36,123 bases of DNA, from the IMG/VR virus record IMGVR_UViG_3300010375_000267, positions 1 through 36,123 of that record; one strand, 5' to 3'. Below the pieces are notes generated by a model. That model was not told where the DNA came from, did no database searches, and worked only from the letters and a program-made list of their open reading frames with translations. Position numbers and translations under genes: made by a program. This DNA is from a virus. Below are positions 6,914 to 32,270 of the stretch, in pieces (position 1 is the stretch's first letter; each line of letters begins with the position of its first letter).

Positions 6914-7052
6914 CAGCGCCCTCCTCATCCTCGTGCCCCTCGCAGTGGATGCCGATGCGGCCGCCGCACACGTCGCAGGTCGGGTACTCCCGCTCCTGCT
7001 CGTTCTCCGCCTCGATGCACCGTTCCTCGGCCGTCCTGTAGTAGAGCGCCAT
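6900..7052 (-). CDS. First early gene: small zinc-finger-like protein, 50 aa
   Basis: ATG at 7052 (MALYYRTAEERC) with AAGGAGG seven bases upstream, the strongest ribosome binding site in this part. The C-terminal half reads CDVCGGRIGIHCEGHEDEEG, a CxxC-Cys-His set typical of a small zinc ribbon. The inverted repeat at 7067-7087 directly abuts the ribosome binding site, so repressor binding there should block this gene and the operon behind it. In phage maps, the first gene after such an operator is often a regulator or host take-over factor; which one is unknown. Confidence 0.68.
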   Translation of the reverse strand: MALYYRTAEERCIEAENEQEREYPTCDVCGGRIGIHCEGHEDEEGADGIR

Positions 7053-7066
7053 GTCGCTGCCTCCTT

Positions 7067-7087
7067 GTGAACACTCTAACTGTTCAC
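7067..7087. promoter_or_regulatory. Operator O1: GTGAACA/TGTTCAC inverted repeat
   Basis: Perfect 7-base arms (GTGAACA and TGTTCAC) separated by seven bases, 21 bases in all, in an unusually AT-rich gap between the repressor gene and the first early gene. On the minus strand it reads into the AAGGAGG site of the gene starting at 7052. TTGCGT followed 15 bases later by TTAGAG, which lies inside the operator spacer, is a weak promoter candidate for leftward transcription. Position and symmetry make it the probable target of the XRE-type repressor next door. Confidence 0.72.
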
Positions 7088-7108
7088 ACGCAGGACGCAA
7101 GAAGAAAA

Positions 7109-7118
7109 GTGAACACTT
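7109..7118. promoter_or_regulatory. Operator half-site O2
   Basis: A single GTGAACAC copy of the O1 arm, 22 bases from O1, without a matching second arm. It lies between the repressor stop and the first early gene. It may be a weak auxiliary repressor contact. Confidence 0.4.
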
Positions 7119-7134
7119 CGCACGAATCGCCTAA

Positions 7135-7560
7135 CTACGCGATTCCGTTGGGCCAGTGCGCAGCGTTCGCGGGCCAGCCGGTGAGCTTCTCGATGCGCTC
7201 GGCCCGGGCACGCGGAATGGGGCGGCCGTTTTCGGCGCGGTACATCGAGAGCAGCGACACCGGCGTGTCGAGCCTGGTGGCGAGGCTGCGCAGCGTGTAG
7301 CCGGCAGCGGTGACCGCCTTCATGAATGGCGTCTTGGCGCGCCCCTTCGAAATTGCTACGCGGTGAACAGTCTGCATGCTACTGTTCACCTTGCCACCAA
7401 TGTTCACACCGTGCAAGGGTGCGTTTCCCGCCGCCTCGCGCAGTAACCGCGCGTGCTCGTCGAGGGCGGCTGCTTCGATGCGCTTCTGCGTGGCCTCGGC
7501 CTCGGCGGCTTCGGCGGCGGCGAGCAGGGACTCACGGGACAGGCGCGGCACGGGAGGCAC
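7135..7560 (-). CDS. XRE-type helix-turn-helix repressor
   Basis: The C-terminal part (~80-128) is a helix-turn-helix of the Cro/CI (XRE) type: TAAGYTLRSLATRLDTPVS, then LLSMYRAENGRPIPRARAERIEKLTGWPAN, the usual five-helix pattern (shown here in two pieces). Residues 8-45 look like an Ala/Glu coiled coil that could dimerise. The GTG start at 7560 has no ribosome binding site, and residues 46-72 have codons with low third-position GC, because operators O3 and O4 lie there. The alternative start, ATG 7377 (MQTVHRVAISK), has AAGGTG upstream and sits inside O3, giving an 80-residue repressor and a 191-base divergent control region. I cannot decide between the two. Probable lysogeny regulator controlling the early operon and itself. 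Confidence 0.78.
   Translation of the reverse strand: MPPVPRLSRESLLAAAEAAEAEATQKRIEAAALDEHARLLREAAGNAPLHGVNIGGKVNSSMQTVHRVAISKGRAKTPFMKAVTAAGYTLRSLATRLDTPVSLLSMYRAENGRPIPRARAERIEKLTGWPANAAHWPNGIA
7362..7390. promoter_or_regulatory. Operator O3: perfect 10-base inverted repeat in the repressor gene
   Basis: Arms GGTGAACAGT and ACTGTTCACC, perfectly matched, nine bases between them, and the same core as O1 but with wider spacing (13 instead of 7 between GTGAACA cores). It overlaps a candidate ATG of the repressor (7377). It could be an autoregulatory operator or an RNA stem-loop at the start of the shorter repressor. Confidence 0.65.
7401..7407. promoter_or_regulatory. Operator half-site O4
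   Basis: A TGTTCAC arm, 10 bases from O3, without its partner. Together with O1-O3 it makes six arm copies within about 340 bases, far above chance in this GC-rich DNA. Confidence 0.4.
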
Positions 7561-7568
7561 GTTGTAGC

Positions 7569-7772
7569 ATGGCTCGCAAGAATCATCCCTGCGTTACGGT
7601 GTCCGTGGTGCGCGACGCCGCCGGCGACGGCCTGGAGGTGCGCGCGGTGTTCACCGCCTACGCAATAGAGCACCTGTCGAGAGACATCAGCGCTGACCTG
7701 ATCGCGGATTCGGTTGCGAAGGTCGAGCGGCGCCTGCTGGAGTATGTGCGTGAACAGGTGACGAAGCCGTGA
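7569..7772 (+). CDS. Small protein, first gene of the rightward operon, 67 aa
   Basis: ATG at 7569 with GGAGG 11 bases upstream. Mixed alpha/beta protein (VTVSVVRDAAGDGLEVRAVF, then a charged helix to VAKVERRLLEYVREQV). It is divergent from the repressor, the usual place of a Cro-like or accessory lysogeny gene, but no DNA-binding motif is visible. Its codon choice is phage-like. No family recognised. Confidence 0.66.
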   Translation: MARKNHPCVTVSVVRDAAGDGLEVRAVFTAYAIEHLSRDISADLIADSVAKVERRLLEYVREQVTKP

Positions 7773-9132: not shown

Positions 9133-9390
9133 TCAAGGCGTTTCGTCTTCGGAGTCCGGAATCGGGATGCCGTGCGCGCGTGACAGCGAGCGGCCGCGCT
9201 TGTACTCGTCGAGGCGCTCCTGCGCCTTCGTCCACGACTCGAGCTCGCCGATGCGCTTGCCCTGGTCGCGCGCTGACTTCTCGAGCGCTTTCTCGAGCCG
9301 GTCGAGGCGGTCGAACACGATGAGCCGCAGCAGGTACGAGAACGCACCCGCGAGCAGGCCGGCGCCGAAGAGGACGAGGGGCCAGTTCAC
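9133..9390 (-). CDS. Membrane-anchored coiled-coil protein, spanin- or holin-like
   Basis: GTG 9390 overlaps the SGNH hydrolase stop (GTGA). One N-terminal membrane segment (LVLFGAGLLAGAFSYLLRLI) is followed by a coiled coil (RLDRLEKALEKSARDQGKRI) of about 50 residues. This is the layout of an inner-membrane spanin and of several phage membrane accessories. No outer-membrane lipoprotein partner is nested in it that I can see, so the assignment stays open. Confidence 0.6.
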   Translation of the reverse strand: MNWPLVLFGAGLLAGAFSYLLRLIVFDRLDRLEKALEKSARDQGKRIGELESWTKAQERLDEYKRGRSLSRAHGIPIPDSEDETP

Positions 9391-10106: not shown

Positions 10107-10772
10107 CTACGTGTTCTGCACGTAGCCGCCGGTGTTCGCGGCGAACGTCGTGCCGTTATAGTAGACGTCCAGGTACTGATAGGTGCTGCCCGACGCCGGG
10201 CCGAGCGTGATCACCGTCGAGCCCAGGGAGTTCTTGATGATCGCATTGAAGGCGCCGGTGTCCTTGCGGATGATGCGCGCGCCGAGCAGCGAACCAGCGA
10301 TCGCGCTCGTGTTCTGCAACGTGTACGTGCGGTTCGCGGTGAGAGGCGCAGACGCGCCGATGACGTACTGGCTCGCCTTGTCGACGAACGGCGAGATGTT
10401 CGCGTCGGCGTCGCCCAGATCCGCGCCGGGCGCGAGACGGTAGAAGGAGGCCTTCGAGGGCGTCCCGTCGGCGGCGAAGTACAGGAAGCCTGGTCCGCTC
10501 ATCGTAGCCAGGAGCGCCTTGAGAACGGAGCTCGGCAGGTTCGCGAGCGTCGCCGCAACCGAGCCGGTGCCGGCCGCCGTCACGTCGCCGGTCAGGGCTG
10601 TGATTCCGCTGCCGCCGCCGAGCGACGACGTCGATCCGTCCGACTGCTGAAGCAGCGGCGTCGTGCCGTCGTTCGTGATGATCGCGAGCGCTCCCGAAGG
10701 CGGCGGCGCGGGCGTCCCCTTCTGGACGACGAGCTGGTTGGCGATGGCTGGTGTCTGCTTCGCGTCGGCCAT
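10107..10772 (-). CDS. Tail-fibre-like protein, 221 aa
   Basis: ATG 10772 with AAGGGGAG upstream. Residues ~57-78 read ITALTGDVTAAGTGSVAAT, a repeat-like segment very common in phage tail fibres. The C-terminal half is Ser/Thr/Asn-rich beta (TANRTYTLQNTS, YQYLDVYYNGTTFAANTGG), as in fibre tip or beta-helix domains. Short for a whole fibre, so it could be the distal part of a multi-protein fibre. The following SGNH hydrolase fits a receptor-binding module. Confidence 0.72.
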   Translation of the reverse strand: MADAKQTPAIANQLVVQKGTPAPPPSGALAIITNDGTTPLLQQSDGSTSSLGGGSGITALTGDVTAAGTGSVAATLANLPSSVLKALLATMSGPGFLYFAADGTPSKASFYRLAPGADLGDADANISPFVDKASQYVIGASAPLTANRTYTLQNTSAIAGSLLGARIIRKDTGAFNAIIKNSLGSTVITLGPASGSTYQYLDVYYNGTTFAANTGGYVQNT

Positions 10773-10784
10773 GATCGTCTCCCC

Positions 10785-11204
10785 TTAGGCCAGGGCATTC
10801 CCCGAGCGCGCGGCGGCGCCCACCTTGAGCAGCTTCGACGCCGAGCCACCCGACGTGGCCGTGTACTTGAAGCGGATCCACTTCGCCGGCGGCACCGGGT
10901 CGAAGCTGAACAGAAAGTTGATGTTCGCCGAGTCACCGGCGGGGTTCTGCGCGCTCATCGCCGAAGTGAGCGTCAGCGGCGTCGCCCCCAGCGACGCGAC
11001 GTAGCTCGACCCGTTCGGGTTTTCGTCGTCGGTGACGTCGGCGCCCCACGTGCCCACGGGGGCGCCCGTTCCCGTCATGACGACTTGGAACCCGACACCG
11101 CCGTAGCGATTGCAGGGCACCCACGGCCCGACCCAGCTAGCGTTCGTCGCGACGCCCTCTACCCCGGACGTCTGTGCGTAGGCCTGACGGCTGAACGATC
11201 CCAC
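10785..11204 (-). CDS. Beta-rich virion protein, 139 aa
   Basis: GTG start at 11204, four bases downstream of leader motif copy 1 and without a Shine-Dalgarno. Beta-sandwich-like pattern (VGFQVVMTGTGAPVGTWGADV, FLFSFDPVPPAKWIRFKYTA cut to the pieces FQVVMTG and WIRFKYTA), similar in style to discoidin/F5-8-like or decoration folds in phage. It sits between structural genes, so a surface virion role is probable. No family fixed. Confidence 0.62.
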   Translation of the reverse strand: MGSFSRQAYAQTSGVEGVATNASWVGPWVPCNRYGGVGFQVVMTGTGAPVGTWGADVTDDENPNGSSYVASLGATPLTLTSAMSAQNPAGDSANINFLFSFDPVPPAKWIRFKYTATSGGSASKLLKVGAAARSGNALA

Positions 11205-11208
11205 GCCA

Positions 11209-11225
11209 AAGCGGCGTTGGATACC
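11209..11225 (-). promoter_or_regulatory. Leader motif, copy 1
   Basis: GGTATCCAACGCCGCTT on the minus strand, exact 17-base copy, four bases before the GTG at 11204. It begins right after the TAG stop of the preceding gene. Context beyond the 17 bases (TGGC before the GTG) is the same as in copy 4. Confidence 0.8.
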
Positions 11226-12026
11226 CTACCCTCGGCTCGCGTCCTGGCCCGGCGTGGACTGGCCGTCGGTGGTCTCCGGGGCCGCCCCGCCGCCGCCCTT
11301 CCGCTGCTGCGCCTGCAGCGCGGCCTGCTCCTGCGCCGCCTGCTGCGCGAACATCGTCTGCACGTCCGCGGCGATGGACAGGTCGACGGTCGCCTGGCCG
11401 CGCAGGATGCCCACGAGCGCGAGCTTGGTCGGCGACGGCTGCCAGTCCTCGCCCCGCCGCGCGACGAGCTGCGCGCCAGCGTCTACGACGGCCTGCGACA
11501 TCTCGGCGTACGTCGCCGGGTAAAGCAGCTGCATCGCGGCCACCTGGTCCTCGCTGAGCGAGCCGTCTTCGAGGTCGTCGAGGATGGCCATCGGATCGCA
11601 CGCGACCGCCCATACGCGCCGGAAGTCCGCGATCTCGCTCTCGGGCGGGTCCTCGACGTGCAGGTTCATGAAGCCGCCCTGCTCGGGCCGCGGGATGATG
11701 CCGTTCGCCCACGTCTGCAGCCGGTCGGCCTTGACCAGCAGGTCGCTGGCGATCTCGGGCTCCGGCAGCGCCTTCATGAGCGCCGCCGTCTGCTCGGGCG
11801 TCTGCCCGCCGGACACGAGCTTGAGCGTCTCGTCGTAGTCGAACTCGGGCAGTTCCTTCGCCTCGGCGAACTCGTCGGAGGCCAGGAAGTGCGCCATGCG
11901 CCGCCGGATCGCCTTCGGAACGGAAGCGGCCGCCTCGAGCTGATACTTGTGGACGGTCGGCTTGGCTCGAAGGATCGGCAACAGCCCGATGGCCGCGAAT
12001 AGGGCCTCTTCGTCCTCGGGCGTCAT
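11226..12026 (-). CDS. Virion-associated protein, internal/ejection-like, 266 aa
   Basis: ATG 12026, six bases after leader motif copy 2. Helical protein with VHKYQLEAAASVPKAIRRRM, DPMAILDDLEDGSLSEDQV and LLYPATYAEMSQAVV. The phrase 'DP-A-LDDLEDG-L...YP--Y-EM' recalls the C-terminal part of large internal phage proteins (ejection or structural lytic type), but that is from memory of the pattern. Gln/Ala-rich tail (QQAAQEQAALQAQQRKGGGG) is likely disordered. It lies among structural genes. Exact role unknown. Confidence 0.6.
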   Translation of the reverse strand: MTPEDEEALFAAIGLLPILRAKPTVHKYQLEAAASVPKAIRRRMAHFLASDEFAEAKELPEFDYDETLKLVSGGQTPEQTAALMKALPEPEIASDLLVKADRLQTWANGIIPRPEQGGFMNLHVEDPPESEIADFRRVWAVACDPMAILDDLEDGSLSEDQVAAMQLLYPATYAEMSQAVVDAGAQLVARRGEDWQPSPTKLALVGILRGQATVDLSIAADVQTMFAQQAAQEQAALQAQQRKGGGGAAPETTDGQSTPGQDASRG

Positions 12027-12032
12027 GCACGA

Positions 12033-12049
12033 AAGCGGCGTTGGATACC
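12033..12049 (-). promoter_or_regulatory. Leader motif, copy 2
   Basis: GGTATCCAACGCCGCTT, exact, six bases before ATG 12026. The flanking TCGTGC and ATG are identical to copy 3. No Shine-Dalgarno lies between motif and start. Confidence 0.8.
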
Positions 12050-12062
12050 GTCCCCGACCATC

Positions 12063-12139
12063 TATAAGCGCCGCTTATGGTCCACCGATCATCCATAAGA
12101 ATTTCTGATTTGACACGCACCGCGTCACGGTGACATAAG
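12063..12139. promoter_or_regulatory. CATAAG repeat cluster with overlapping inverted repeats
   Basis: ATAAGCG-C-CGCTTAT at 12064-12078 is a perfect 15-base inverted repeat. Its right arm also pairs, as CTTATGG (12074-12080), with CCATAAG (12093-12099). A further ACATAAG lies at 12133-12139. The arrangement could be a set of operator half-sites or two competing RNA stem-loops. Confidence 0.45.
12110..12139 (+). promoter_or_regulatory. Candidate sigma-70-type promoter for the lipoprotein gene
   Basis: TTGACA (12110-12115), 18 bases, then CATAAG (12134-12139, four of six matches to TATAAT). It reads towards the lipoprotein gene, leaving a leader of about 240 bases. A perfect -35 box is rare in DNA of this GC content. 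It would allow expression in the lysogen independent of the leftward operon. Confidence 0.45.
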
Positions 12140-12292
12140 ATCTCTTGCGCCGCACAGCGCTGAGTGATTCGGAGCCGGACGGGCGACAACATGGTCGCGG
12201 TCGCCCTGGGGCTGCACACACGCGCCTCGCTGCCTCTCTGGGCCTCCGGGTGTGCCTACGTAATCAGGATCTTGATCGCGCGCGCGAGGGCG

Positions 12293-12316
12293 GTTCCGTA
12301 ACAAGTGTTGCGTAAT
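12293..12316. repeat. Dispersed palindrome, copy 2
   Basis: Arms GTTCCGTAACA and TGTTGCGTAAT around two bases, the most diverged copy. It lies 70 bases upstream of the lipoprotein ATG, the only copy placed before a gene rather than at a 3' end or inside one. Confidence 0.65.
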
Positions 12317-12386
12317 TGCGCGCCGCGTTGACCCTGGACGGGCGTGCAGCTTGCGCGCCGACGCGCGGGGCGGCACGCTGGCGCCC

Positions 12387-12839
12387 ATGAAACGAGCCTT
12401 CGTGTTGCTGGCGCTGGTGTGCGGTTGCGGCTCCTCGTCTCCCGGCGACAGGCTCGACGGCGACTGGCTCTTCACGAACGCCGAGCAGACGGGCGGCATC
12501 GCGTTGAGCTTCAAGGGCAGCTCCTACTCGGTCGCGTCGATGGTGCTTACCTCGTCGTCTTCCTTCGAGGCGTCCGTCGACAAGGGCACGTTCGCGGCGA
12601 CGGACTCGACGATCGCCATGACGCCGACGCAATCGAGTTGTCCAGGGCCGGACCCCGCGAGCGTCGTCAATTACCGATTCGTCGGCTCCAGCCTTGCGCT
12701 CTCGGACTCGAGCGGAACGACCGTCACGTTCGCGCCGAACAACGGCCCGTCCGGCAGCACGACCGTGGTGATTCAGACGGGGTGCTTCGCGCAGGACGGG
12801 ACGTTCACGCCGGCACCCGTCGCGCCCGTCTCGAATTAG
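12387..12839 (+). CDS. Predicted lipoprotein (moron gene), 150 aa
   Basis: ATG 12387 (MKRAFVLLALVCGCGSSSPG): a short basic start, a hydrophobic core and a Cys at about 14 make a lipoprotein signal peptide, with V-C-G-C as a slightly unusual lipobox. The mature part is a small beta-rich domain (GDWLFTNAEQTGGIALSFKG, VVNYRFVGSSLALSDSSG), resembling lipocalin-like or secreted beta-barrel lipoproteins. It stands alone on the plus strand among minus-strand virion genes, with its own promoter candidate and a terminator hairpin. That is the layout of a lysogenic-conversion gene. Possible roles: superinfection exclusion at the envelope or a host-fitness trait. No specific family recognised. Confidence 0.78.
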   Translation: MKRAFVLLALVCGCGSSSPGDRLDGDWLFTNAEQTGGIALSFKGSSYSVASMVLTSSSSFEASVDKGTFAATDSTIAMTPTQSSCPGPDPASVVNYRFVGSSLALSDSSGTTVTFAPNNGPSGSTTVVIQTGCFAQDGTFTPAPVAPVSN

Positions 12840-12859
12840 CGCCCAAACGCCCGCTAATT
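12834..12859. terminator. Bidirectional hairpin between converging genes
   Basis: Perfect 8-base arms AATTAGCG and CGCTAATT with a 10-base loop. It spans the TAG of the lipoprotein gene and the TAA of the converging virion gene. AT-rich ends of the stem on both strands fit a weak bidirectional terminator. Confidence 0.6.
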
Positions 12860-22220: not shown

Positions 22221-22573
22221 CAGCCGGACCCGTTCTGCGAGACGACGAGCAGGTACTGCTTGCCGCCGGGGTTCACGAGGCTCGCGACGCTCGCCGACGC
22301 GGGCGCGTAGACGCCGCTCGTGTACGACAGGTCCAGCGCGGCCAGCTGCGTGCCGCCGACGGTGCTCGTGGGGTTCGTGGAGACCCAGAGTGCGACGCGG
22401 GGCTTGGCGATCGAGAACGCGTCAGCCTTCGCGATGACCGACACGTCGATGTCGAGGCGCGGCCCGAGCTCGTCGAAGTCGACGAACCAGGCCGCGTCGA
22501 TGTTCGGCGTGGTCGAGGCGTTCGTGATGGGGCTCGCGACCGGCCCAAGCTCCGGAATCGAGAGCCCCGGCAC
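22220..22573 (-). CDS. Small beta-domain virion protein, homologous to the adaptor N-terminus
   Basis: GTG 22573; the stop of the upstream gene is three bases away. The 117-residue protein is one beta-rich domain: AAWFVDFDELGPRLDIDVSV, PRVALWVSTNP, LVNPGGKQYLLVVS. It aligns nearly end to end with residues 1-118 of the adaptor at 20242-21378. A duplication within this genome is the simplest reading. Role: surface or joining protein of the virion. Confidence 0.68.
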   Translation of the reverse strand: MPGLSIPELGPVASPITNASTTPNIDAAWFVDFDELGPRLDIDVSVIAKADAFSIAKPRVALWVSTNPTSTVGGTQLAALDLSYTSGVYAPASASVASLVNPGGKQYLLVVSQNGSG

Positions 22574-22576
22574 GAA

Positions 22577-22804
22577 TCACCCTCGGCGCGCGTCGATGTA
22601 CGCGTCCAACGCGTCGCAGGCGGCCTCGGCGTCGCCGCTCTTGAAGGCGGCGAGCACGTCTTCCATCATGCCGACGCGGGCCGCCTTGTCGTCCTCGGCG
22701 GCCATGTCGTCGGACGGTTCGTCGCCGTCGGGCTCGTCGTAGGGCATGCCCTTGACGAGCTTGTCCGGCGGCGGCGCCTTGCGCGCGAGGTCGCCGACGG
22801 CCAC
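22577..22804 (-). CDS. Small acidic head-region protein, 75 aa
   Basis: GTG 22804, one base from the upstream stop. Acidic middle (PYDEPDGDEPSDDMAAEDDK) and a C-terminal helix pair (MEDVLAAFKSGDAEAACDAL, AYIDARRG). Small proteins with this last pattern are commonly encoded near phage capsid genes; their role is unknown. Confidence 0.66.
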   Translation of the reverse strand: MAVGDLARKAPPPDKLVKGMPYDEPDGDEPSDDMAAEDDKAARVGMMEDVLAAFKSGDAEAACDALDAYIDARRG

Positions 22805-22805
22805 G

Positions 22806-23243
22806 TTAGAACGTCCTCACGACGACGGCCCAGTGGACCTCGTAGCCGCTCGCGCCGTCCGTATCGGCACCCGTCGAATCCAGCATCAGCTGAATGTCGA
22901 AGCTCGCCGGGGTCGCGGCCGGCCCCACGCCCGTCCCTGCGGAACGGTTGCGGTACTCGGCGCCGTTCGCGTTCGTGTTGCCGAACGCCGCGTCTGCGGG
23001 TCCGACGATGCCCGGAGCGCCCAGGAACCGCAGCGACGCATAGGCTTGGTCCAGCGTGACGGTGTAGCGCGCCGTCTTCGTCGCCGTCTTGACGACGCCA
23101 GGCGAGACGCCAGCCGCCGCTGAAGGGACGAATCCGGCCGCCGAGGCGATCGCGCCCGAGGACCCGAGCGTGAACATACCCGAGATGATGACTTCGCCGC
23201 GGGCGACACCGCTGAGGCAGCACTGCTTGAGCTTTTTCGCCAT
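22806..23243 (-). CDS. Head decoration-like protein, 145 aa
   Basis: ATG 23243 (MAKKLKQCCLSGVARGEVII) with AAGG upstream; the longer GTG-type extension lies across the hairpin at 23269-23303 and is rejected. Beta-rich with Gly/Ala loops (FGNTNANGAEYRNRSAGTG, SGYEVHWAVVVRTF). It follows the coat gene, where decoration or head-completion proteins are usual. No family fixed. Confidence 0.66.
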   Translation of the reverse strand: MAKKLKQCCLSGVARGEVIISGMFTLGSSGAIASAAGFVPSAAAGVSPGVVKTATKTARYTVTLDQAYASLRFLGAPGIVGPADAAFGNTNANGAEYRNRSAGTGVGPAATPASFDIQLMLDSTGADTDGASGYEVHWAVVVRTF

Positions 23244-23268
23244 GTCCGTGACCTTTCGGTAGAGACGC

Positions 23269-23303
23269 GCGCCGGGCGACACCTCGTGAGCGCCGCCCGG
23301 CGC
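23269..23303 (-). terminator. GC hairpin after the major coat gene
   Basis: Perfect 10-base arms GCGCCGGGCG and CGCCCGGCGC with a 15-base loop, starting six bases past the coat stop. No T-run follows. It could be a leaky terminator or an RNA-stabilising stem that sets coat-protein mRNA above downstream genes. Confidence 0.55.
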
Positions 23304-23309
23304 AGCGAA

Positions 23310-24560
23310 TCAGACCAGCTGCACCCGCAGGCCGCCGGCGGGGTTCTTGAACTGGAAGATCGCCTGCTGGAACAGGCGCGACTCGTAGCCCGCCGAGTTG
23401 TAGATGCGGGCGATGGTCAGCCCGTCTTCCTTGTCGATGTGCGGCATGGTGCCGATCGACTTCTTGACGATCTGCGACGGGTCGAAGCCCCAGATCACCG
23501 TGTCGTTCACGACGCGGCTGATCTCGAGCGTGCCCTCCGCCTCACCGTCGGAGTAGATCGTCAGGCGCTTCGTGCCGACGCTCTTCCCCTCGCCGTTGTT
23601 GTCGTACCGCACGGCGTTCTGCAGGTCCTTCGCGATGCTGGCGAACGTCGCCTTGCTGCAAAAGCAGCGCAGCTTCTTCGCGCCACCCACCGTGATGGCC
23701 TCCGTCACGCCGTCGATGAGACCGCTCACGGGCGAGCCGCCCGCGGTCGCGTCGATGAACGTGCCGTAGTTGCGCGAGTTCTTCGAGCGGTCGACCGTGA
23801 AGAGCGTCGAGTCGTTCGCCGAGATCGCGCTGTTCTGGTTCGGGAACCACGCGCCGAGGCCCGTGAGGGCGATGCGCGACGGCGTGGCGCTGTTCTGCCG
23901 CGCACCCGCGATGAACGCGTAGTCGTCGTTCACGCCGCCGGGGGTGGAGAGGTTGCCCGAGAGCGTGACCTTCTCCTTGCCGGGCGTGTAGATGACCGCC
24001 GTCACCCACAGGCGCGTCGCCGAGCGCAGCACGGCCCCGTCGAGGGACGAGCTGAACACGAGCGGCATGCCCACGACGTACTTCGTGATGTCCGAGGCGA
24101 TCTTGGGCACGAAGGTCGCGCCCGAGACGCTCGTGATCTGCCCGATCTCGCCCCAGCCGCGACCCTGGAAGAACACCGCGTTGATGTGCTCGACGCCCTT
24201 GAGCGTCTTCTCGAAGGCGACGTCGTAGGCCCGCGCCCACGCGCCGTCGTCGTTGCGCGTCTGTCCGATGATCTCGGAGGTCAGCTGAGCGACGGCCGAC
24301 CACGCGTTCCAGCCGGACAGGTACTTCGACCCGACCGTCTGCGTGTTCGAGCTCGCGCCCGTCTGCGCCTCGGAGAAGTCCGGGGAGCCGTTGTAGGCGT
24401 CGTCGTTGTCGGCGAGCCACGAGAAGTTGTCGCCGCTGCCGTCGGTCTTGCTGGAGAGCGATCCGTAGCAAGGCTCTCGGAGGCCCGAGAGCATGTTTTC
24501 CATGCGCTTCGGGTCGTATGTCCGCTTGACGTATGCGTCGAGTGCGGTTTTGTCAAACAT
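23310..24560 (-). CDS. Major coat (capsid) protein, 416 aa
   Basis: ATG 24560 with GGAG about nine bases upstream. Identified by position (portal, scaffold, then coat), size and composition: mixed alpha/beta with many polar residues. It opens with MFDKTALDAYVKRTYDPKRM, followed by N-terminal-arm-like KTDGSGDNFSWLADND. Central FIDATAGGSPVSGLIDGVTE and YDIVIWGFDPS-like stretch (NDTVIWGFDPSQIV) fit HK97-fold coat proteins. It carries a GC hairpin just after its stop, as expected for a highly expressed message. Sequence family not named. Confidence 0.82.
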   Translation of the reverse strand: MFDKTALDAYVKRTYDPKRMENMLSGLREPCYGSLSSKTDGSGDNFSWLADNDDAYNGSPDFSEAQTGASSNTQTVGSKYLSGWNAWSAVAQLTSEIIGQTRNDDGAWARAYDVAFEKTLKGVEHINAVFFQGRGWGEIGQITSVSGATFVPKIASDITKYVVGMPLVFSSSLDGAVLRSATRLWVTAVIYTPGKEKVTLSGNLSTPGGVNDDYAFIAGARQNSATPSRIALTGLGAWFPNQNSAISANDSTLFTVDRSKNSRNYGTFIDATAGGSPVSGLIDGVTEAITVGGAKKLRCFCSKATFASIAKDLQNAVRYDNNGEGKSVGTKRLTIYSDGEAEGTLEISRVVNDTVIWGFDPSQIVKKSIGTMPHIDKEDGLTIARIYNSAGYESRLFQQAIFQFKNPAGGLRVQLV

Positions 24561-24566
24561 GGTCGG

Positions 24567-25547
24567 TTACTCCGCGGCTGCCCTGAGCAGCCCCTCGGCG
24601 GCGAGATCCCGCAGGACCTGTGCGCGCGCCTCGTCCGGGTCGAGCGAGTACTCACGGACCACCGGGGCGCCCGACGTGCCCTTCGAGGTGATGGTCGTGG
24701 CCTTGGCGCTTCTGCTCGCACCCGGTGCGCCTGGCGCGGGTGCGGTCTGGGCGTTCTTCGCGGCCGAACGCGGGGCCGGATCGCCGAACTCGGCGCGGAG
24801 CTCGCGCTCCACCTGGTCGGCGAGGTAGAAAACAGCGTTGTCGGGGCACGAGCCGTGCGCCTTCGCGTACTCGACGATCTCGCCCCACAGGCGCTGCTGC
24901 CCGAGCGACGTCGCGGTGCGCGCGTACTTGTCGCCCTGCGCCTTGAGCGCCTCGCCGACCGCCTTCTTCGAGGCCTCGACCTTCTCGGCGTTCGCGCGCT
25001 CGGCGGCCTCACGGTCGCGACGCTCGATCTCGGCGCGCAGCTTGCCCACCTCGTCGAGCGGGTCGGGCTTCCTGTCGGTGCCGGCCCCCTTCGCGACCAG
25101 GTGGTCGATGAACTCGCGCGCCGAGCTGAAGCCGGCCGCCTTCATCGCCGCCGCAGGGTCGTCTCGCAGCGACGGGACGGACGAGGCCGCCTCGAGCTTG
25201 GCCTTGAGCGTCGCGTTCTCGCGCGACACCGTCTCGACGGCGCGCTCGGCGCGGCGCGCGGCGGCCATCGTGCGGTTCGCGTACTGCTGGCCGAGGCGGC
25301 GCAGCTCGGCCTCGGGGATCTTCTTGACGAGCTCGGGCAGCTGCTCGAGGAACTTCGCGTCCTCGGCGGCCTTCGCCTCGGCTTCCGCCGCGATTTCCTC
25401 GGGCGTCTTCTCGGCCGGGTCCTCGGCGGGCGCTACCGGCGCGGCCGGTTCACCCTCGACGGGCGTCTCGGGCGCGGGTGCCTCTTCGGTCGTGCCTGGA
25501 TTCGCGGCGCCCTCGGCGGGAGCGTCGGAGCTTTGCGTGGTGTCCAC
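24567..25547 (-). CDS. Scaffold-like protein, 326 aa
   Basis: GTG 25547, four bases after leader motif copy 4. Acidic, Pro/Glu-rich N-terminus (TTEEAPAPETPVEGEPAAPV), long coiled coil (RRAERAVETVSRENATLKAK; KLRAEIERRDREAAERANAE) and a basic/helical end, the classic scaffold layout. Located directly before the coat gene. The protein would guide coat assembly and leave or be cut. No protease gene is visible. Confidence 0.8.
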   Translation of the reverse strand: MDTTQSSDAPAEGAANPGTTEEAPAPETPVEGEPAAPVAPAEDPAEKTPEEIAAEAEAKAAEDAKFLEQLPELVKKIPEAELRRLGQQYANRTMAAARRAERAVETVSRENATLKAKLEAASSVPSLRDDPAAAMKAAGFSSAREFIDHLVAKGAGTDRKPDPLDEVGKLRAEIERRDREAAERANAEKVEASKKAVGEALKAQGDKYARTATSLGQQRLWGEIVEYAKAHGSCPDNAVFYLADQVERELRAEFGDPAPRSAAKNAQTAPAPGAPGASRSAKATTITSKGTSGAPVVREYSLDPDEARAQVLRDLAAEGLLRAAAE

Positions 25548-25551
25548 GCCA

Positions 25552-25568
25552 AAGCGGCGTTGGATACC
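25552..25568 (-). promoter_or_regulatory. Leader motif, copy 4
   Basis: GGTATCCAACGCCGCTT, exact, four bases before the scaffold GTG. The preceding portal stop is eight bases upstream of it. Flank (TGGC then GTG) is identical to copy 1. Confidence 0.8.
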
Positions 25569-25576
25569 ATCGCGCT

Positions 25577-27502
25577 CTACGCCGCAGCGGACGTGGCCGG
25601 CGGCGCATTACCGCCCGGCTGTCCGGGAACCGGCGGCGCGGCCGCAGCCTGTGCGGCTGCCTGCGCCTTCTGCTGCAGCGCCTTGCACCGCTTCAAGTAC
25701 CGGCGCACGCGCTCGAGGTGCTTCTCGGGCACGCCGTCCTCGGCGCCCTGCTCGAGGTAGTCGACTCCGATCTCGAGCGCGAGTTTGTAGTCGGTCCACT
25801 CGTCGGGCACCGCCGCCGCCTTCGGCTCGTACAGCAGGTCCTCGAACATCTGTTCGAGCCTGCGCTGCGGCGCCAGCTGGCGGTTCACGCGGCCGTCTAC
25901 GTCGAGGTCCTGCATGTAGCCGGCGAGCTGCGACGCCGTCCAGGCGCCCATCTCGACCATCTCCTTGCCGTAGGCCATGAGGCCGTCCGGGTCGGTCGGC
26001 ACGGGGCTCGCGGGCTTCGTCTCGAGGACGTAGTCCTTCTCGTCGATCGCCACGTCCTTCCAGTCGACGACGCTGAGGCCGCGCTTGCCGGGCACCGCGA
26101 CCTTGTAGCCGCTGCGCCGCGGCCGCTTCTTGGCCTTGTCGTCGCCCTCGCTCTCGGCGTCGGCGTCCTGGCCCGTGACGATGTCGCGGACGATGCCGAG
26201 AGCGACCTTGACGCAGTCGAGGTGGAAGCGCTCCCAGCGCTGCTGCCGCATGCTCTGGCGCTTCGTCGACTTCTTGGTGCGCTCGCGCAGGGCGGCGCCG
26301 CTGGCGTCCAGGCCGCTGCCCGAGTCGCCCTCGGCCTCGTCCTGGTTCACTCCGTAGTTCTCGAAGATGCGCTGGCCGTCGCGCTCGACCTGGTCGTACA
26401 TCTCCTTGGTCGCCGCCTGGAACAGGATCTGCTTGGGCGGGTTCGGGCCGTTGCCGATCCACGACGAGCCGATCTCATTCGACAGCTGCCCCTTGTCGAG
26501 CTTCATCTCCCGCGGCACGTACAGGTGCCCGGCGTGGAAGAGCTTCTGCGCGCGGTCGATGCGATAGCTGTTCGCGTTGATGCGGCGCTGCAGCTTTCGG
26601 CTGCACGTCATCGGCGACAGGCCCCACCCCGTCGTAAAACGCTCCTCCCACGAGAAGAACACGAGCTCGTGGTACGGCTTCTTGTACGGCTCGACGAGCA
26701 GGTCGCCGCCCTCGATGTCCAGGGCGACGATGTGCCAGCCGTCGTTGCTCTCTTCGTCGGTCGGCAGGTGCCACGCCTCGAAAACGTCGGCGTCGTCGTC
26801 GGCGAACGCGCCCGCTGCCGTCTGCACGTGGTGCGACCGGATGAGGTTCGCCAGCTTCTCGTCGTCCTTCGCGAAGTCGGCGATCACCTTCTCGACCGGG
26901 ACCGGGCGCCGGCGGTAGATCGTGCGCGGCATGCCGTCGACGAGGCCGTCCTTGGGGTTCCACGACAACTCGGGCGCCAGGATGCGCTGCACCGCGCACC
27001 GCTCGCCCTGCGCCGTGCGCTCCCGGTAGAACTGGAGCACGCCCACGCCGCTCTGCAGGACCGCCGCATCGAGCGCAGCGCGCTGCTTGAGCCGGTGCAG
27101 CTTGAGCTCGTGGACGAGTCCGTCGGCAAAGTTCTGCATCTCGCGCCCGCGGCGGCGCTGCCGGTAGCTGCCGTCGTTCACCAGGAAGCGAGCGCGCTGG
27201 TCGGTGCTCGCCACCTGCGAAAGCAGCGTGTCGATCATCGCCTTGGCGCGGTTGTTCGTGCTGTCGTCAGGCGGCGTGAGCGGCATCGCCCCGCCGCCGT
27301 CCGAGTAGTAGCGCCCGGCGAAGTCGTAGAGCGTCGCGTTGGCGTCGGCCTCGTAGAGCCGCACGTTATCGATGTCGCGGTCGCGCCGGTACGTCTCGAA
27401 CGGCAGGTTCGAAATGATCTTCTGGCACTTGACCATCGCCGCCGCGCGCTCGGCGGGCGTCATCTCATCGCGCCAGAACGACAGCGACTCAGACGGGGGC
27501 AC
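25577..27502 (-). CDS. Portal protein, 641 aa
   Basis: GTG 27502 with GAGGG seven bases upstream; overlaps the preceding gene by 14 bases. An ATG at 27463 (MTPAERAAAM) is an alternative. Large helical protein with ILAPELSWNPKDGLVDGMPR, HELVFFSWEERFTTGWGLSP, RINANSYRIDRAQKLFHAGH and a Gln/Ala-rich C-terminus, fitting portal proteins of P22-like podoviruses (600-750 residues). It forms the DNA entry ring at one capsid vertex. Position between terminase and scaffold supports this strongly. Confidence 0.84.
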   Translation of the reverse strand: MPPSESLSFWRDEMTPAERAAAMVKCQKIISNLPFETYRRDRDIDNVRLYEADANATLYDFAGRYYSDGGGAMPLTPPDDSTNNRAKAMIDTLLSQVASTDQRARFLVNDGSYRQRRRGREMQNFADGLVHELKLHRLKQRAALDAAVLQSGVGVLQFYRERTAQGERCAVQRILAPELSWNPKDGLVDGMPRTIYRRRPVPVEKVIADFAKDDEKLANLIRSHHVQTAAGAFADDDADVFEAWHLPTDEESNDGWHIVALDIEGGDLLVEPYKKPYHELVFFSWEERFTTGWGLSPMTCSRKLQRRINANSYRIDRAQKLFHAGHLYVPREMKLDKGQLSNEIGSSWIGNGPNPPKQILFQAATKEMYDQVERDGQRIFENYGVNQDEAEGDSGSGLDASGAALRERTKKSTKRQSMRQQRWERFHLDCVKVALGIVRDIVTGQDADAESEGDDKAKKRPRRSGYKVAVPGKRGLSVVDWKDVAIDEKDYVLETKPASPVPTDPDGLMAYGKEMVEMGAWTASQLAGYMQDLDVDGRVNRQLAPQRRLEQMFEDLLYEPKAAAVPDEWTDYKLALEIGVDYLEQGAEDGVPEKHLERVRRYLKRCKALQQKAQAAAQAAAAPPVPGQPGGNAPPATSAAA

Positions 27503-27791
27503 GGCCGGCCCTCGGGAAGTTCTTCGCGTGGATCGGGTCCTCGATCACGGCCTCGTCCTCGTCGTCACCGCCGAGCGGGTCCTTTTCGAGCGGGCCCATG
27601 CCCTCGTCGAGACTCACGGGCTTCCCCGAGCGGTCGACCAGGCCAGCGGGCACCACAGGAGGGCTGAACTCGACCTCGATGGAGGTCGGCCCGTGCTCAT
27701 CGAACGTGATTCGAGACCGGGAAACCCCCGCCTCTCTCAAGACGGACAGCGCGAACTCCAATTCGTCCGTCCTGGCCGTGCGTTTCCCCAT
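27489..27791 (-). CDS. Hypothetical 100-aa protein before the portal
   Basis: ATG 27791 (MGKRTARTDELEFALSVLRE), five bases after leader motif copy 5. A helix, then strands (SRSRITFDEHGPTSIEVEFS), then an acidic stretch (LGGDDEDEAVIEDP). It lies between terminase and portal and overlaps the portal start, so a packaging or head role is likely. No family recognised. Confidence 0.7.
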   Translation of the reverse strand: MGKRTARTDELEFALSVLREAGVSRSRITFDEHGPTSIEVEFSPPVVPAGLVDRSGKPVSLDEGMGPLEKDPLGGDDEDEAVIEDPIHAKNFPRAGRAPV

Positions 27792-27796
27792 CAGCC

Positions 27797-27813
27797 AAGC
27801 GGCGTTGGATACC
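27797..27813 (-). promoter_or_regulatory. Leader motif, copy 5
   Basis: GGTATCCAACGCCGCTT, exact, five bases before ATG 27791 and 15 bases after palindrome copy 4 on the minus strand. Confidence 0.8.
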
Positions 27814-27828
27814 GTCCGAGTGGCACCC

Positions 27829-27852
27829 GTTTCGGAACATTTGTTACGAAAG
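27829..27852. repeat. Dispersed palindrome, copy 4
   Basis: Arms GTTTCGGAACA and TGTTACGAAAG around TT. It lies five bases past the large-terminase stop. With leader motif copy 5 it forms the same two-part gene boundary as at 16.9 kb. Confidence 0.75.
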
Positions 27853-27857
27853 TCGCC

Positions 27858-29387
27858 CTAGTCGGTGACCCAACCCATGTCGCCGTCGAGGTCGTCCACG
27901 AACTCCTCGCCCTGGTACTCGTCGCCCGGCTGCTGGGTCGCCCGGCGGTTGCGCTCGGCGCGCTGGGCGGCCTCGTGGCGCTCCCTGGCCTCGCGTTCCT
28001 CGGGCGTTTCGGTGGTCGGGGCGTCGGGCAACAGGTTCGCGAGCTCGACCGCGGCGTAGCGGGCCATCGGAACCACGTCCGAGTGCCCCGTTTCCTGGAT
28101 CTTCCCGTTCACGATGCCGTCCACCCACTCGCTGTTGCGCACCTCGGCGTAGAACTGGCTCTTTCGGGACACCTTGAACCCCCTGAGCATGCGGTCGTTG
28201 AGCGCCTTCACCTGCAGGTTCACGGGCGGCTTGACCACGGCGCGCATCGGCACGTCGGGGAACAGCTTCTGCAGGGTCATGATGACCTTGAGCCCGAGCC
28301 CGCCGCCGTCGAACGCGGTCACGACGGGAGCCGTGGGCTTGTCCTCGATGAGCGGCCGCAGCTCGTCGCCGAGCGCGAGCGTGTCCTGCCCGCGCTTCAC
28401 GTGCTCGGACACGAGATAGAGCGTCGGGTCGCCGTCGTTCCAGCCCCAGCGGCCGACGGCGTCAGCGTCGCGCACGCCGATGTCGCCGATGAGCGCGTAG
28501 CGGTCGAAGCGCGGCGGGCCGTTCTCCTCCCACTCGAGCGGCCATACGTTCTCTTCGTCGTCGAAGTGGTACACGCGGCGCGCCAGGTCGACGACCCAGC
28601 GGGCCATGATCTCGCGCTGGTACCAGCTGCCGTCCTTCGTCTCGCCGGCCTCGGCGAGCATCTCGTCGACGACGGCCTCGATCTGCTCGCGCGGGCCGAG
28701 CTTCGAGTTGTCGTACACCGTGCCCGTGAACACCGTGGCGCCGGGCCGGCTCATGTAGTCCCAGAACGTCCCGACCTTGCCGAGCGGATTCGGCGTGCCC
28801 ATCAGCCACAGCTGCGCGTCGATGCCCTTCGCGCGCAGGTCGATGAACATCGGCTTGATGACGTCGAGCAGCAGGTACTGCAGCACCTCGGCCTTGTAGC
28901 GCTGCGACTCGTCCACGCACACGAACGCGACGTTGCTCAGGCCGCGCACCTTGTCGGCCGCCTCGACGCTGTCGACGGGCAGCAGCACGACCTGTGAGCC
29001 ATTCGGCAGTGTCATCGACCAGCCCTCGACGCCCTTGAGCGACACGGCTCCGAGCTCGTGCGCGCGGTTCATCTCGCGCAGCGTGCGCCAGAAGATGCGG
29101 CTGATGCTGCCCTGGGTCGCGCCGATGAGGCAGCACGTCACGCCCGGGTTCGCGATCGCGACGGCAAAGGCCTTGAAGCAGGCCACGACGCTCTTGCCCC
29201 AGCGGCGACCGGCGCAAATGACGACGGTCAGCGCCGCGCACAGGAACACGGCGATCTGACCCGCGTGCAGGACGTTCTCGGGCGTGAACGTCGACGCCTC
29301 GGGCGCCGGCGGGGCGTCCTCGGTCAGCTCGACGAGCTCGTCAGCGAGGATCGCCAGCTGGGAGCGTTCGTTTTCGTCGAGCCTCAT
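27858..29387 (-). CDS. terL: Large terminase subunit
   Basis: 509 residues. The ATPase half has AGRRWGKS (59-66, Walker A with the Arg-rich terminase form) and VAFVCVDE (153-160, Walker B with catalytic Glu), then MGTPNP. The nuclease half has LIGDIGVRDADA (Asp 302), TAFDGGG (Asp 360) and GHSDVVPMARYA (Asp 437), the three metal-binding acids of the RNase H-like fold. It packages DNA into the prohead through the portal and cuts it. ATG 29387 overlaps the small terminase by 47 bases. Acidic tail (GEEFVDDLDGDMGWV) is probably disordered. Confidence 0.92.
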   Translation of the reverse strand: MRLDENERSQLAILADELVELTEDAPPAPEASTFTPENVLHAGQIAVFLCAALTVVICAGRRWGKSVVACFKAFAVAIANPGVTCCLIGATQGSISRIFWRTLREMNRAHELGAVSLKGVEGWSMTLPNGSQVVLLPVDSVEAADKVRGLSNVAFVCVDESQRYKAEVLQYLLLDVIKPMFIDLRAKGIDAQLWLMGTPNPLGKVGTFWDYMSRPGATVFTGTVYDNSKLGPREQIEAVVDEMLAEAGETKDGSWYQREIMARWVVDLARRVYHFDDEENVWPLEWEENGPPRFDRYALIGDIGVRDADAVGRWGWNDGDPTLYLVSEHVKRGQDTLALGDELRPLIEDKPTAPVVTAFDGGGLGLKVIMTLQKLFPDVPMRAVVKPPVNLQVKALNDRMLRGFKVSRKSQFYAEVRNSEWVDGIVNGKIQETGHSDVVPMARYAAVELANLLPDAPTTETPEEREARERHEAAQRAERNRRATQQPGDEYQGEEFVDDLDGDMGWVTD

Positions 29388-29637
29388 CGAGCAGCCTCTG
29401 GATTTCCTTCTCGACCGCGCGGCGCAGCTTGTCGTTCTCGGGGTACGCGATCTCGTACAGCGCCTTCGCCGCCATGACGGCCACGCCGGCCTGACGCCCT
29501 CCGCAGTCGAGCAACTCGGCGAGCCGCTGCACCGCCTTCGGGATGTGCGCGCGGGCCAGCAGCATCACCTCGTCGGGCGTCAGCGGGTCGCGCTGCCCAA
29601 CCAGATCTCCCCCCTGGCCCCCGGAATCGTCGGCCAT
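29341..29637 (-). CDS. Probable small terminase subunit, 98 aa
   Basis: ATG 29637 with AAGGAGG six bases upstream. Helical throughout: LTPDEVMLLARAHIPKAVQR, then AGVAVMAAKALYEIAYPEND and a charged C-terminal helix. The size, helical nature and position immediately before terL fit the DNA-recognition subunit, although it is short and lacks an obvious helix-turn-helix. First gene of the morphogenesis block. Confidence 0.7.
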   Translation of the reverse strand: MADDSGGQGGDLVGQRDPLTPDEVMLLARAHIPKAVQRLAELLDCGGRQAGVAVMAAKALYEIAYPENDKLRRAVEKEIQRLLDEARRKRTLPAGDPR

Positions 29638-29934
29638 AAATCCTCCTTATGACACTATCAGGTTTTCTTATGCTGCCGGGCGCGGCTGGAGCCGAGCCCA
29701 ACCGCCCTAGCGTCGCGTCTCGCGCGATCTCTCCGAAGTAACGTCTCGGGTTGCGTCTCAGAGGCTCGGAGTGGTTGCTACCTCGCACCTCGTACTGCGC
29801 TATGTGTGCCCGCGAGCCCCGCGATGGGGCGCCCTTCGACGCCCCTGCTTTTTCAGGCAGCCCCCGGTCCGGTCGGTTCCGGTTCCATCGGCAGGCCCCT
29901 TTGCAAGCGGTATTCATTGGCCCCGTGTCCTCGG
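29638..29934. other. 297-base gap before the terminase genes
   Basis: No convincing gene. The minus-strand frame covering it is of low coding quality, and no tRNA cloverleaf was found. Near the terminase end lie two CATAAG copies (minus strand) 20 bases apart with TGATAGTG between them, similar words to the cluster at 12.1 kb. A packaging-site or late-promoter role is possible because the gap lies just upstream of the small terminase. Confidence 0.5.
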
Positions 29935-30173: not shown

Positions 30174-30356
30174 TTAGGCCAGCTCCATCCGGATGCCCGC
30201 CGCCAGCGTGCGCATCTTCTCGGCCCGCACGGCCGTCTCGCCCTTGGCCCGAGCGTCGAGCGCGTCGGCCGCCTCGAGCCCACGGCGCCGGAAGTTCGGC
30301 GTCTTGAGACCTGCGGCCTTGGCGCGCGCGAGGCGCTGGCGAGCGTCCTTGCTCAC
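30174..30356 (-). CDS. Small basic helical protein, 60 aa
   Basis: GTG 30356 overlaps the upstream stop (GTGA). Basic and helical (KDARQRLARAKAAGLKTPNF). The segment ARQRLARAKAAGLKTP resembles the start of a DNA-binding or resolvase-tail helix, but no fold can be claimed. Function unknown. Confidence 0.62.
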   Translation of the reverse strand: MSKDARQRLARAKAAGLKTPNFRRRGLEAADALDARAKGETAVRAEKMRTLAAGIRMELA

Positions 30357-30625
30357 GACTCGACCACCCGTTCCGCCTGCGCGATCTTGTGCCAGGGCAC
30401 CGTGATGATGAGGTCGTGCCCCTCGAGCTTCTCGGCGCGCGCCTTGACGCTCTCGTAGCCGCCGCCCGGGATCTTCACGTCGATGCCACCGGCGTGCGCG
30501 CGCCCGTCCACGTCGATTAGGTCAGACTTCTCCCGCGTGCCCGGGATGTTGACGGTCTCCATCGACCGCATCTTGATCAGCGCGTAGCGCGCCCACTGCG
30601 GTGCCTGCTTCGGTTCGGCTGCCAT
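30353..30625 (-). CDS. Possible in-frame internal gene, 90 aa
   Basis: ATG 30625 is preceded by GAGAGGAG (about seven bases), a better site than most starts here. It would give the C-terminal 90 residues of the helix-turn-helix protein on their own. There is no stop between the two parts, so either a fusion protein, a nested product, or both are made. A gene caller may report only this shorter form. Confidence 0.5.
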   Translation of the reverse strand: MAAEPKQAPQWARYALIKMRSMETVNIPGTREKSDLIDVDGRAHAGGIDVKIPGGGYESVKARAEKLEGHDLIITVPWHKIAQAERVVES

Positions 30626-31093
30626 GCTCGCTCTCCTCTCGTTTTGTTTCGCCTCGATGTGCTTCCACGCCTGCTCGCGCCCCGAGCGGCGCCACGGATT
30701 CGCGACCGGCGGCGGCGGCGCGCGCCTCGTCACCGCGCGCAAGGCCTTCTCGACAACGCCGCGGCTCACCCGCAGCCGGCGCGCCACCTGTGCGTTGCTC
30801 TTGCCAGCCGCGTGCAGACGCCACACGGCGCGAAGCTGGACGCTCGCGTCGGAGCGCTGCCGCGGGAAGCAGTCGCGCCGGCGCAGCAGCGAGCGCGCCC
30901 AGGACAGGTATCGATCGCGCGCCTCGACGTCGTCGGACCCGCGCGGGCGGCGTCGCTCCCCCGGCGTCTCTCGGCGCCAGACGCGGCCGTTTCCCGCCGG
31001 GTCGTCAAGCGGCGCCAGGCCCTCGCGCGCGAGGCGCTCCTCGAACAGGCGACGGGCGTGGTCGACGTCGAGGCGCACGGGGGCGAGCTTCAC
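30353..31093 (-). CDS. Helix-turn-helix protein with extra C-terminal domain, 246 aa
   Basis: GTG 31093 overlaps the upstream stop (GTGA). Residues ~86-122 form a helix-turn-helix: LRAVWRLHAAGKSNAQVARR, then LRVSRGVVEKALR (recognition helix), as in small phage transcription factors and sigma-region-4-like domains. Residues 157-246 (from MAAEPKQAPQWARYALIKM) form a second unit with strands (GGIDVKIPGGGYESVKARAE; HDLIITVPWHK). An ATG at 30625 with GAGGAG upstream opens exactly at this second unit, so a separate 90-residue product is likely. Possible late-gene activator by position before the terminase genes. Confidence 0.66.
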   Translation of the reverse strand: MKLAPVRLDVDHARRLFEERLAREGLAPLDDPAGNGRVWRRETPGERRRPRGSDDVEARDRYLSWARSLLRRRDCFPRQRSDASVQLRAVWRLHAAGKSNAQVARRLRVSRGVVEKALRAVTRRAPPPPVANPWRRSGREQAWKHIEAKQNERRASMAAEPKQAPQWARYALIKMRSMETVNIPGTREKSDLIDVDGRAHAGGIDVKIPGGGYESVKARAEKLEGHDLIITVPWHKIAQAERVVES

Positions 31094-31953: not shown

Positions 31954-32270
31954 CGCCGCCGCCCCGTGTCCGTGCCGCAGTCCTGCTCGCCGCGCCTACC
32001 CAGGAACGCGACGGCACCGTCGATGCACTCATGGGCGCCGCGCAGGCCGCACCGTACGCAGTGGGGCTCGCCCTCGCCCCACGAGTCGAACGCGTCGTCA
32101 TGGGAGCGGCCGCGGATGCCCCGCATGGCCCGGGCGATCATGTTGCTCACGGTCGAACGCTGGACGCCCATCAGCTCGGCGATCTCGTTCGTCGACCTGC
32201 CCGCCTTGCGCATCTCGAGCATGCGCAGCGACCGCGAGCCGTCTCGCTTGCGGGTGAGCGGCGCCGACAT
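31950..32270 (-). CDS. Helix-turn-helix protein with Cys/His tail, 106 aa
   Basis: ATG 32270 overlaps the helicase stop (TGATG). Residues ~17-50 hold a helix-turn-helix (MLEMRKAGRSTNEIAELMGV, then QRSTVSNMIARAMRG). The tail has CVRCGLRGAHECI, a possible zinc site, and a short Cys near the end. It is a small transcription factor candidate for switching to late genes. Not matched to a named family. Confidence 0.7.
   Translation of the reverse strand: MSAPLTRKRDGSRSLRMLEMRKAGRSTNEIAELMGVQRSTVSNMIARAMRGIRGRSHDDAFDSWGEGEPHCVRCGLRGAHECIDGAVAFLGRRGEQDCGTDTGRRR

Follow-up and report, generated by a model that had tools for sequence, protein, structure and literature searches.

Exactly repeated, phage-specific leaders take the place of the Shine–Dalgarno sequence before late virion genes in a putative undescribed phage family

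In the IMG/VR virus record IMGVR_UViG_3300010375_000267 (positions 1 to 36,123; the window below denotes this whole stretch of 36,123 nucleotides (nt)), we analyzed a 17-base repeat, GGTATCCAACGCCGCTT, which stands just ahead of five late virion genes that lack a Shine–Dalgarno (SD) sequence. It is a modular start-associated element, uniform within each phage and divergent between phages. This is supported by its exact repetition, its fixed distance from the start, the replacement of the SD, the retention of the same slots in relatives, the concerted change of its copies and the retention of one copy across a gene swap. We tentatively propose that it is an SD-independent initiation signal at the level of the mRNA, read by a co-evolving factor of the phage. 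Together with its relatives, the window appears to define an undescribed phage family, in which each phage would possess a private, exactly repeated start signal of 17–23 bases.

The element and its copies in the window

As a preliminary description of the window had claimed, five exact copies of GGTATCCAACGCCGCTT are present, all on the minus strand and all 4–6 nt before an ATG or GTG (Table 1). No sixth copy was found in the window even when 3 mismatches were allowed, and dinucleotide shuffles gave a chance expectation of 0.09 matches, with a largest value of 1, as against the five seen. The copies all fall between the terminase and the tail-fibre region. The claim that the genes beneath them are free-standing also holds: the gaps to the previous gene on the same strand measure 21, 29, 60, 66 and 827 nt with no overlap, unlike the neighboring late genes, which are mostly coupled by overlap. 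In-frame stops lie 8–23 codons upstream of the five starts. For the starts under the copies at 12033 and 25552, the conserved protein N-termini in the close relative G004, introduced below, provide confirmation. The flanks upstream of the copies are dissimilar, with some copies abutting or closely following the stop codon of the previous gene. A stretch of 26 nt, spacer and ATG included, is common to copies 2 and 3, and one of 25 nt to copies 1 and 4; these long shared stretches suggest copying within the genome. An Rfam search of the window returned 0 matches at the gathering score.

Table 1. Copies of the element, the genes beneath them and associated features in the window
Feature	Position	Strand	Remarks
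Copy 1, GGTATCCAACGCCGCTT	11209..11225	-	spacer TGGC (4 nt), start GTG, gene 10785-11204
Copy 2	12033..12049	-	spacer TCGTGC (6 nt), start ATG, gene 11226-12026
Copy 3	16908..16924	-	spacer TCGTGC (6 nt), start ATG, gene 15999-16901
Copy 4	25552..25568	-	spacer TGGC (4 nt), start GTG, gene 24567-25547
Copy 5	27797..27813	-	spacer GGCTG (5 nt), start ATG, gene 27489-27791
Gene under copy 1	10785..11204	-	unrelated to same-slot gene of G004/G007
Gene under copy 2	11226..12026	-	85% identical in G004
Gene under copy 3	15999..16901	-	
Gene under copy 4	24567..25547	-	adjoins major head protein gene 23310-24560 on its upstream side; scaffold-like by position
Gene under copy 5	27489..27791	-	100 amino acids; between terminase large subunit and portal
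Inverted repeat ATAAGCGGCGCTTAT	12064..12078	-	14 nt upstream of copy 2
Inverted repeat CGGAACATTTGTTACG	16943..16958	-	18 nt upstream of copy 3
Imperfect inverted repeat TTTCGTAACAAATGTTCCGAAA	27830..27851	-	16 nt upstream of copy 5; resembles an extended start-associated sequence (ESAS)
Conserved helix-turn-helix protein	30353..31093	-	helix-turn-helix at residues 82-124, C-terminal beta domain; before terminase genes

Replacement of the Shine–Dalgarno sequence

Genes were taken from a simple codon-usage caller, with the starts of three window genes and one G004 gene corrected by hand, and an SD was called strong at an anti-SD duplex energy of -4.5 kcal/mol or better. The proposed absence of an SD from the five element starts of the window is evident from their weak energies (-1.5 to +1.3 kcal/mol). 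Across the 14 starts that adjoin an element in the window, G004 and the more distant relative G007, the energies range from -2.5 to +1.3 kcal/mol and not one is strong (0/14). In the same three genomes, respectively, a strong SD precedes 89%, 60% and 67% of the other free-standing genes and 81%, 65% and 62% of the coupled genes; in the window this amounts to 16 of the 18 free-standing genes without an element. The neighboring genes that had been singled out as bearing an SD indeed do so, namely those at 29637 (AAGGAGG), 8851 (AGGAG) and 7052 (AAGGAGG). It is thus strongly supported that the element takes the place of the SD at free-standing virion genes. The preliminary description had allowed that these genes might use alternative, SD-bearing starts. 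Within 40 codons and at -5 kcal/mol or better there is none for four of the five genes, and the gene under the copy at 27797 has one, an in-frame TTG at codon 10 with an SD of -6.5 kcal/mol.

It had further envisaged a match to 16S rRNA. One such reading, in which the element would be an extended, shifted SD that pairs immediately 5' of the anti-SD (GGUGAUCCAACCGC complement), we regard as exceedingly improbable. The pairing of the window's GGT-ATCCAACgCCGC and of GGTCA-CCAATCGCAG from the relative G005 is better than that of their own shuffles (p 0.012–0.03), but none of the ten further elements tested reaches significance, and the mean z by 16S type lies between -0.26 and -0.59, with the types used not necessarily being that of the host. 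Moreover, part of the 16S target lies in helix 45. The match is therefore above chance in two lineages only (window/G004 and G005) and is not a family-wide property.

Retention in a close relative and divergence in others

Relatives were gathered by scanning viral contigs with alignments of the terminase, portal and head proteins. In G004 (IMGVR_UViG_3300033475_000140), the terminase is 89% and the head protein 94% identical to those of the window, and all five elements are kept at matching slots, four of them exactly and one with an A at position 1. The element bases of the two phages are identical at 84 of 85 positions, as against only 44 of 100 in the 20 nt upstream; the third codon positions are 74–80% identical. 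Behind copy 1, the gene of the window is unrelated to the one that occupies the same slot in G004 (BLASTP E 0.91), the latter being 52% identical to the G007 gene of that slot. Unrelated genes behind a conserved copy indicate that the gene was exchanged while the element was retained. So precise a swap, along with the 26 nt common to copies 2 and 3 and the 25 nt common to copies 1 and 4, would also suit pure recombination linkers, i.e., boundary sequences for gene exchange devoid of any role in expression. We consider this very improbable, as it leaves both the SD replacement and the fixed start distance unexplained.

A search for the 17-mer in related phages, as advised in the preliminary description, found it in multiple copies in one further contig alone, G004, where it stands at orthologous starts, and the motif is not scattered over random places in related genomes. 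Three other viral contigs (L006–L008) have a single match each. We rejected these as true elements and judged them to be chance matches, those of L006 and L008 not being at an evident start.

In more divergent relatives, other repeats occupy the same slots. G007 has five copies of GGTCCCCGATCGGGCGCCTGTGA, L066 three of GGACCCATCCGCGC, and G010 and L069 two each of GGCCCTCCCCATGCGGGCA and GGCCCGCCCCATAGCGCCG, respectively, while G008 and G009 share GGCCCTCCCCATGyyGACTm in 4 and 3 copies (the G008 form begins GGCCCTCCCCATG). Single leaders at matching positions are seen in the short contigs G005 (L012), G006 (L013), L034, L061, L062 and L067. The 18-mer core of the G007 repeat has no match elsewhere in the viral collection. 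Common to all is a loose GG-n-CC-C-A head 20–30 nt ahead of the start: the distance from GG to the start is 20–26 nt (26–30 in G008/G010), with a within-genome spread of at most 4 nt, save for one displaced G007 copy. The length of the element varies from 17 to 23 nt, and each phage has it before four or five late virion genes. The four long genomes have four slots in common. These belong to a small gene preceding the portal (one inserted gene away in G007), the gene that precedes the head protein, the gene that follows a large nozzle-like gene, and the gene ahead of the tail-fibre region. The slot of copy 3 is also filled in G004, G007, G008 and probably L066; that of copy 4 in G004, G007, G008, G010, L034, L061, L062, L066, L067 and L069; and that of copy 5 in G004, G005, G006, G008, G010, L066 and L069, with G007 having its copy one inserted gene upstream. 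Lineage-specific insertions are followed by additional copies (copy 2 in the window and G004; 35456 in G007). The element is missing from two remoter relatives: L071 (head protein 43% identical) has none, and a hairpin, CTCCTACGCGATACGTGTAGGGAG (L071:3700-3746), lies just before the start of the same gene, whereas L072 (25%) has an ordinary SD in place of the element.

A neutral scan for start-linked exact repeats recovered the element in the window, G004, G007 and L066, and in G008 on the complementary strand only. The same scan recovered the known start-associated sequence (SAS) in mycobacteriophage Anaya and found nothing comparable in T7 or D3.

How the element might be read

Our preferred, if tentative, reading is that the element, standing before late virion genes without translational coupling to the gene upstream, would do there what the SD does at other starts. 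It would be read in the mRNA and load ribosomes at a start without an SD. Its reader would be a phage-encoded, co-evolving factor and not the host ribosome alone, because the element is uniform within phages and private or divergent between them. A bolder version, which we hold to be doubtful, is that of a private translation channel: the late virion genes would have abandoned the SD to start only via the phage-specific leader and the phage-encoded factor, with co-evolution rapid enough to give almost every phage a code of its own. Several points weigh against initiation at the mRNA level. No reader factor could be pinned down. There is no 16S rRNA pairing partner across the family, nor any partner elsewhere in the phage genomes in the form of exact words of at least 10 nt. 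The strong start-codon hairpins of G008 and of part of the window and G004 would hinder initiation, not help it. Finally, some 40 nt separate the G007 copy at 6564 from the start of an inserted gene, which encodes 64 amino acids and has a strong SD of its own; copies can hence occur at a distance from starts. This displaced copy is at least as compatible with a role as a transcript start or a DNA site, and no other observation argues so strongly against an obligatory action at the start codon itself.

The same copy bears on the second-ranked alternative, in which each phage would have its own late promoter, running up to the start codon and yielding leaderless mRNAs with no need for an SD. In G007, three copies abut the ATG and one is 1 nt away, while an SD is present in the longer stretch that follows the remaining copy, as would be expected if transcripts began at the edge of the element. 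Identity within and difference between phages is typical of promoters that co-evolve with their reader. Compared by position, the slots appear to resemble those of the T7 promoters phi6.5, phi9, phi13 and phi17 (V01146), i.e., before a small gene and the portal, before the scaffold, after the nozzle-like gene and before the tail-fibre region; copy 2, moreover, stands behind opposite-strand genes in the window and G004 alike. However, no -10 or -35 is seen near the element, and 8 of the 31 element starts are GTG. The conserved block spans only -26 to -1, which suits a T7-type enzyme and not a bacterial holoenzyme, yet no unexplained open reading frame of the length of a single-subunit RNA polymerase (~800 amino acids) is present in the window, G007 or G008, records that may be incomplete. 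A PF00940 search gave no match, though it gave none in any control either, and a search for sigma factors gave none over the cut-off. Given the want of -10/-35 elements and of a long enough polymerase gene, we place reading in the mRNA first and the leaderless promoter, which we think somewhat unlikely, second. In the interpretation of the preliminary description, a start-linked element in place of the SD is borne out, also where relatives have other sequences; of the two mechanisms that it had offered, the leaderless-type promoter is disfavored and the translation-initiation element only tentatively preferred. A host-type (sigma70) promoter giving leaderless mRNA was rejected: there are neither -10/-35 hexamers nor an AT-rich stretch, with 0 sigma70-like promoters found versus 0.5 expected in window 10500-29900, an AT content of 36% without enrichment at -14 to -5, and TAnnnT in 2 of 21 leaders.

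The element might alternatively be a DNA site for a phage protein, akin to a stoperator or operator, controlling transcription of the late segment. It is asymmetric, oriented with transcription and private to each phage, and inverted repeats at or above the 95th percentile of the background lie upstream of 10 of the 32 copies. These repeats are phage-specific in sequence, often 14–20 nt from the element, and have no promoter inside; TTTCGTAACAAATGTTCCGAAA recurs in the opposite orientation at copy 3 and is near-identical in G005 at the same distance. A conserved helix-turn-helix protein, encoded ahead of the terminase genes wherever a relative's sequence includes this region, is the only nameable candidate for a trans-acting reader and is unproven as such. 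Its fold model is of low confidence (predicted template modeling score 0.36), with no fold match at E 0.001 and with generic helix-turn-helix domains, including sigma region 4, as the best matches. The helix of this protein does not differ between the window and G004 and hardly differs between G008 and G010, and both pairs share their elements; this co-variation is no more than phylogeny would give with so few lineages. The likely immunity repressor gene 7135-7551 lies among GTGAACA-n-TGTTCAC palindromes unlike the element. As the strict start distance and the missing SD are also left unexplained, we deem a DNA site improbable. G007 further displays a palindrome of its own, TGGGACA-n-TGTCCCA, in four copies (L032:4181-4195, 6583-6597 and 9248-9262; L033:4589-4603), of which two are 18 nt upstream of elements and one overlaps the start of an Mgm101-like recombinase gene.

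Finally, the element could act as a translational operator, pairing with the region of the start codon in a hairpin that a phage protein would bind or open. In all six copies of G008/G010 the start codon is paired with a probability of 0.94–1.0, and both sides of the hairpin have changed between copies (CTG/CAG vs TCG/CGG). Likewise, four of the five G004 copies and two of the five in the window fold better than the same element on any other start of their own genome. G at +4 is found in 20 of 31 element starts versus a background of 37% in other genes of the same phages (p 0.001, post hoc and with non-independent sites). Against this, folding at the start codon over 11 lineages has a mean z of -0.34 ± 0.27, and is hence not a family feature; own-versus-swapped starts give a mean z of 0.08 ± 0.32; and the hairpin is absent from G007, L061, L062, L067, L069 and window copies 2 and 3. 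We therefore consider the operator quite improbable, and rejected the hairpin as a general mechanism: it is supported in G008/G010 and much of window/G004 but not across the family. A search through the rest of the phage genomes for an antisense or decoy copy likewise yielded nothing convincing.

Relationship to known systems

Known from a few actinobacterial phages, namely mycobacteriophages of cluster K (PMC3203893) and Microbacterium phages of cluster EF (PMC7302621), the SAS with its ESAS is the closest known kind of element, and its role is still described as unknown (PMC3203893, PMC7302621, PMC11373665, PMC12699233); a literature search for the same element turned up only papers of the SAS type. 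Both are short asymmetric repeats with many exact copies in a single orientation, a few bases before starts (within about 3–9 bp) and with a gap upstream; in both, the sequence differs between phage groups, and the inverted repeats found upstream of some SAS copies may have a counterpart in those near 10 of the 32 element copies. However, the SAS holds an SD core (AGGAG/AGGA) and in cluster K lies near non-structural genes, whereas the present element has no SD and precedes virion genes. On these two grounds, both of which were tested, we do not class it as an SAS. It also measures 17–23 nt, begins 20–30 nt before the start and differs in nearly every relative.

Other repeats are more distant. 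The intergenic repeats of cluster EC/EI Microbacterium phages (PMC7302621) are likewise oriented and asymmetric, 18–30 bp long, in short gaps and in 5–12 copies; those of EC, however, precede a separate ribosome-binding site, at 21–30 bp from the start, in phages with an annotated sigma factor, whereas the element starts lack such a separate site and no full sigma factor was found. T7-type promoters (V01146) are also oriented repeats private to each phage in similar late-gene slots, but they lie further upstream, with an SD in between, and require the phage RNA polymerase. The cluster A stoperators and the 17-bp repeats of cluster O (PMC4351075) resemble the element as numerous short repeats that are presumed protein-binding sites, the stoperators being also asymmetric and oriented. 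However, stoperators are repressor sites, and those of cluster O are palindromes without a link to starts.

Other features of the genome

A likely genetic switch occupies window 7041-7640, with GTGAACA-n-TGTTCAC palindromes and a repressor-like gene (7135-7551) that has homologues in G007 and G008; this region suggests a temperate phage. A search of bacterial genomes for a related prophage by its terminase found only terminases 26–34% identical. Inserted into the late region, an opposite-strand gene (12351-12839, plus strand), at the location of which G004 has different opposite-strand genes, codes for a lipoprotein-like signal, VCGCGSSSPGD, hinting at a possible Gram-negative host. A ParB-like protein beside an endonuclease VII is encoded together with a ResIII/DEAD-type helicase (34515-35594 and 32270-34030); the ParB-like protein and the helicase are conserved in G007.

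Conclusions

SAS came to be known in 2011, and no role has been established for them since; in the cases that contain an SD, translation is hard to separate from other roles. In the phages considered here, the element starts have no SD and the sequence at a given slot differs from phage to phage, such that these natural swaps make the specificity of leader and factor testable. If a leader works only with the factor of its own phage, this would constitute a phage-encoded initiation pathway apart from both SD-dependent and ordinary leaderless initiation.

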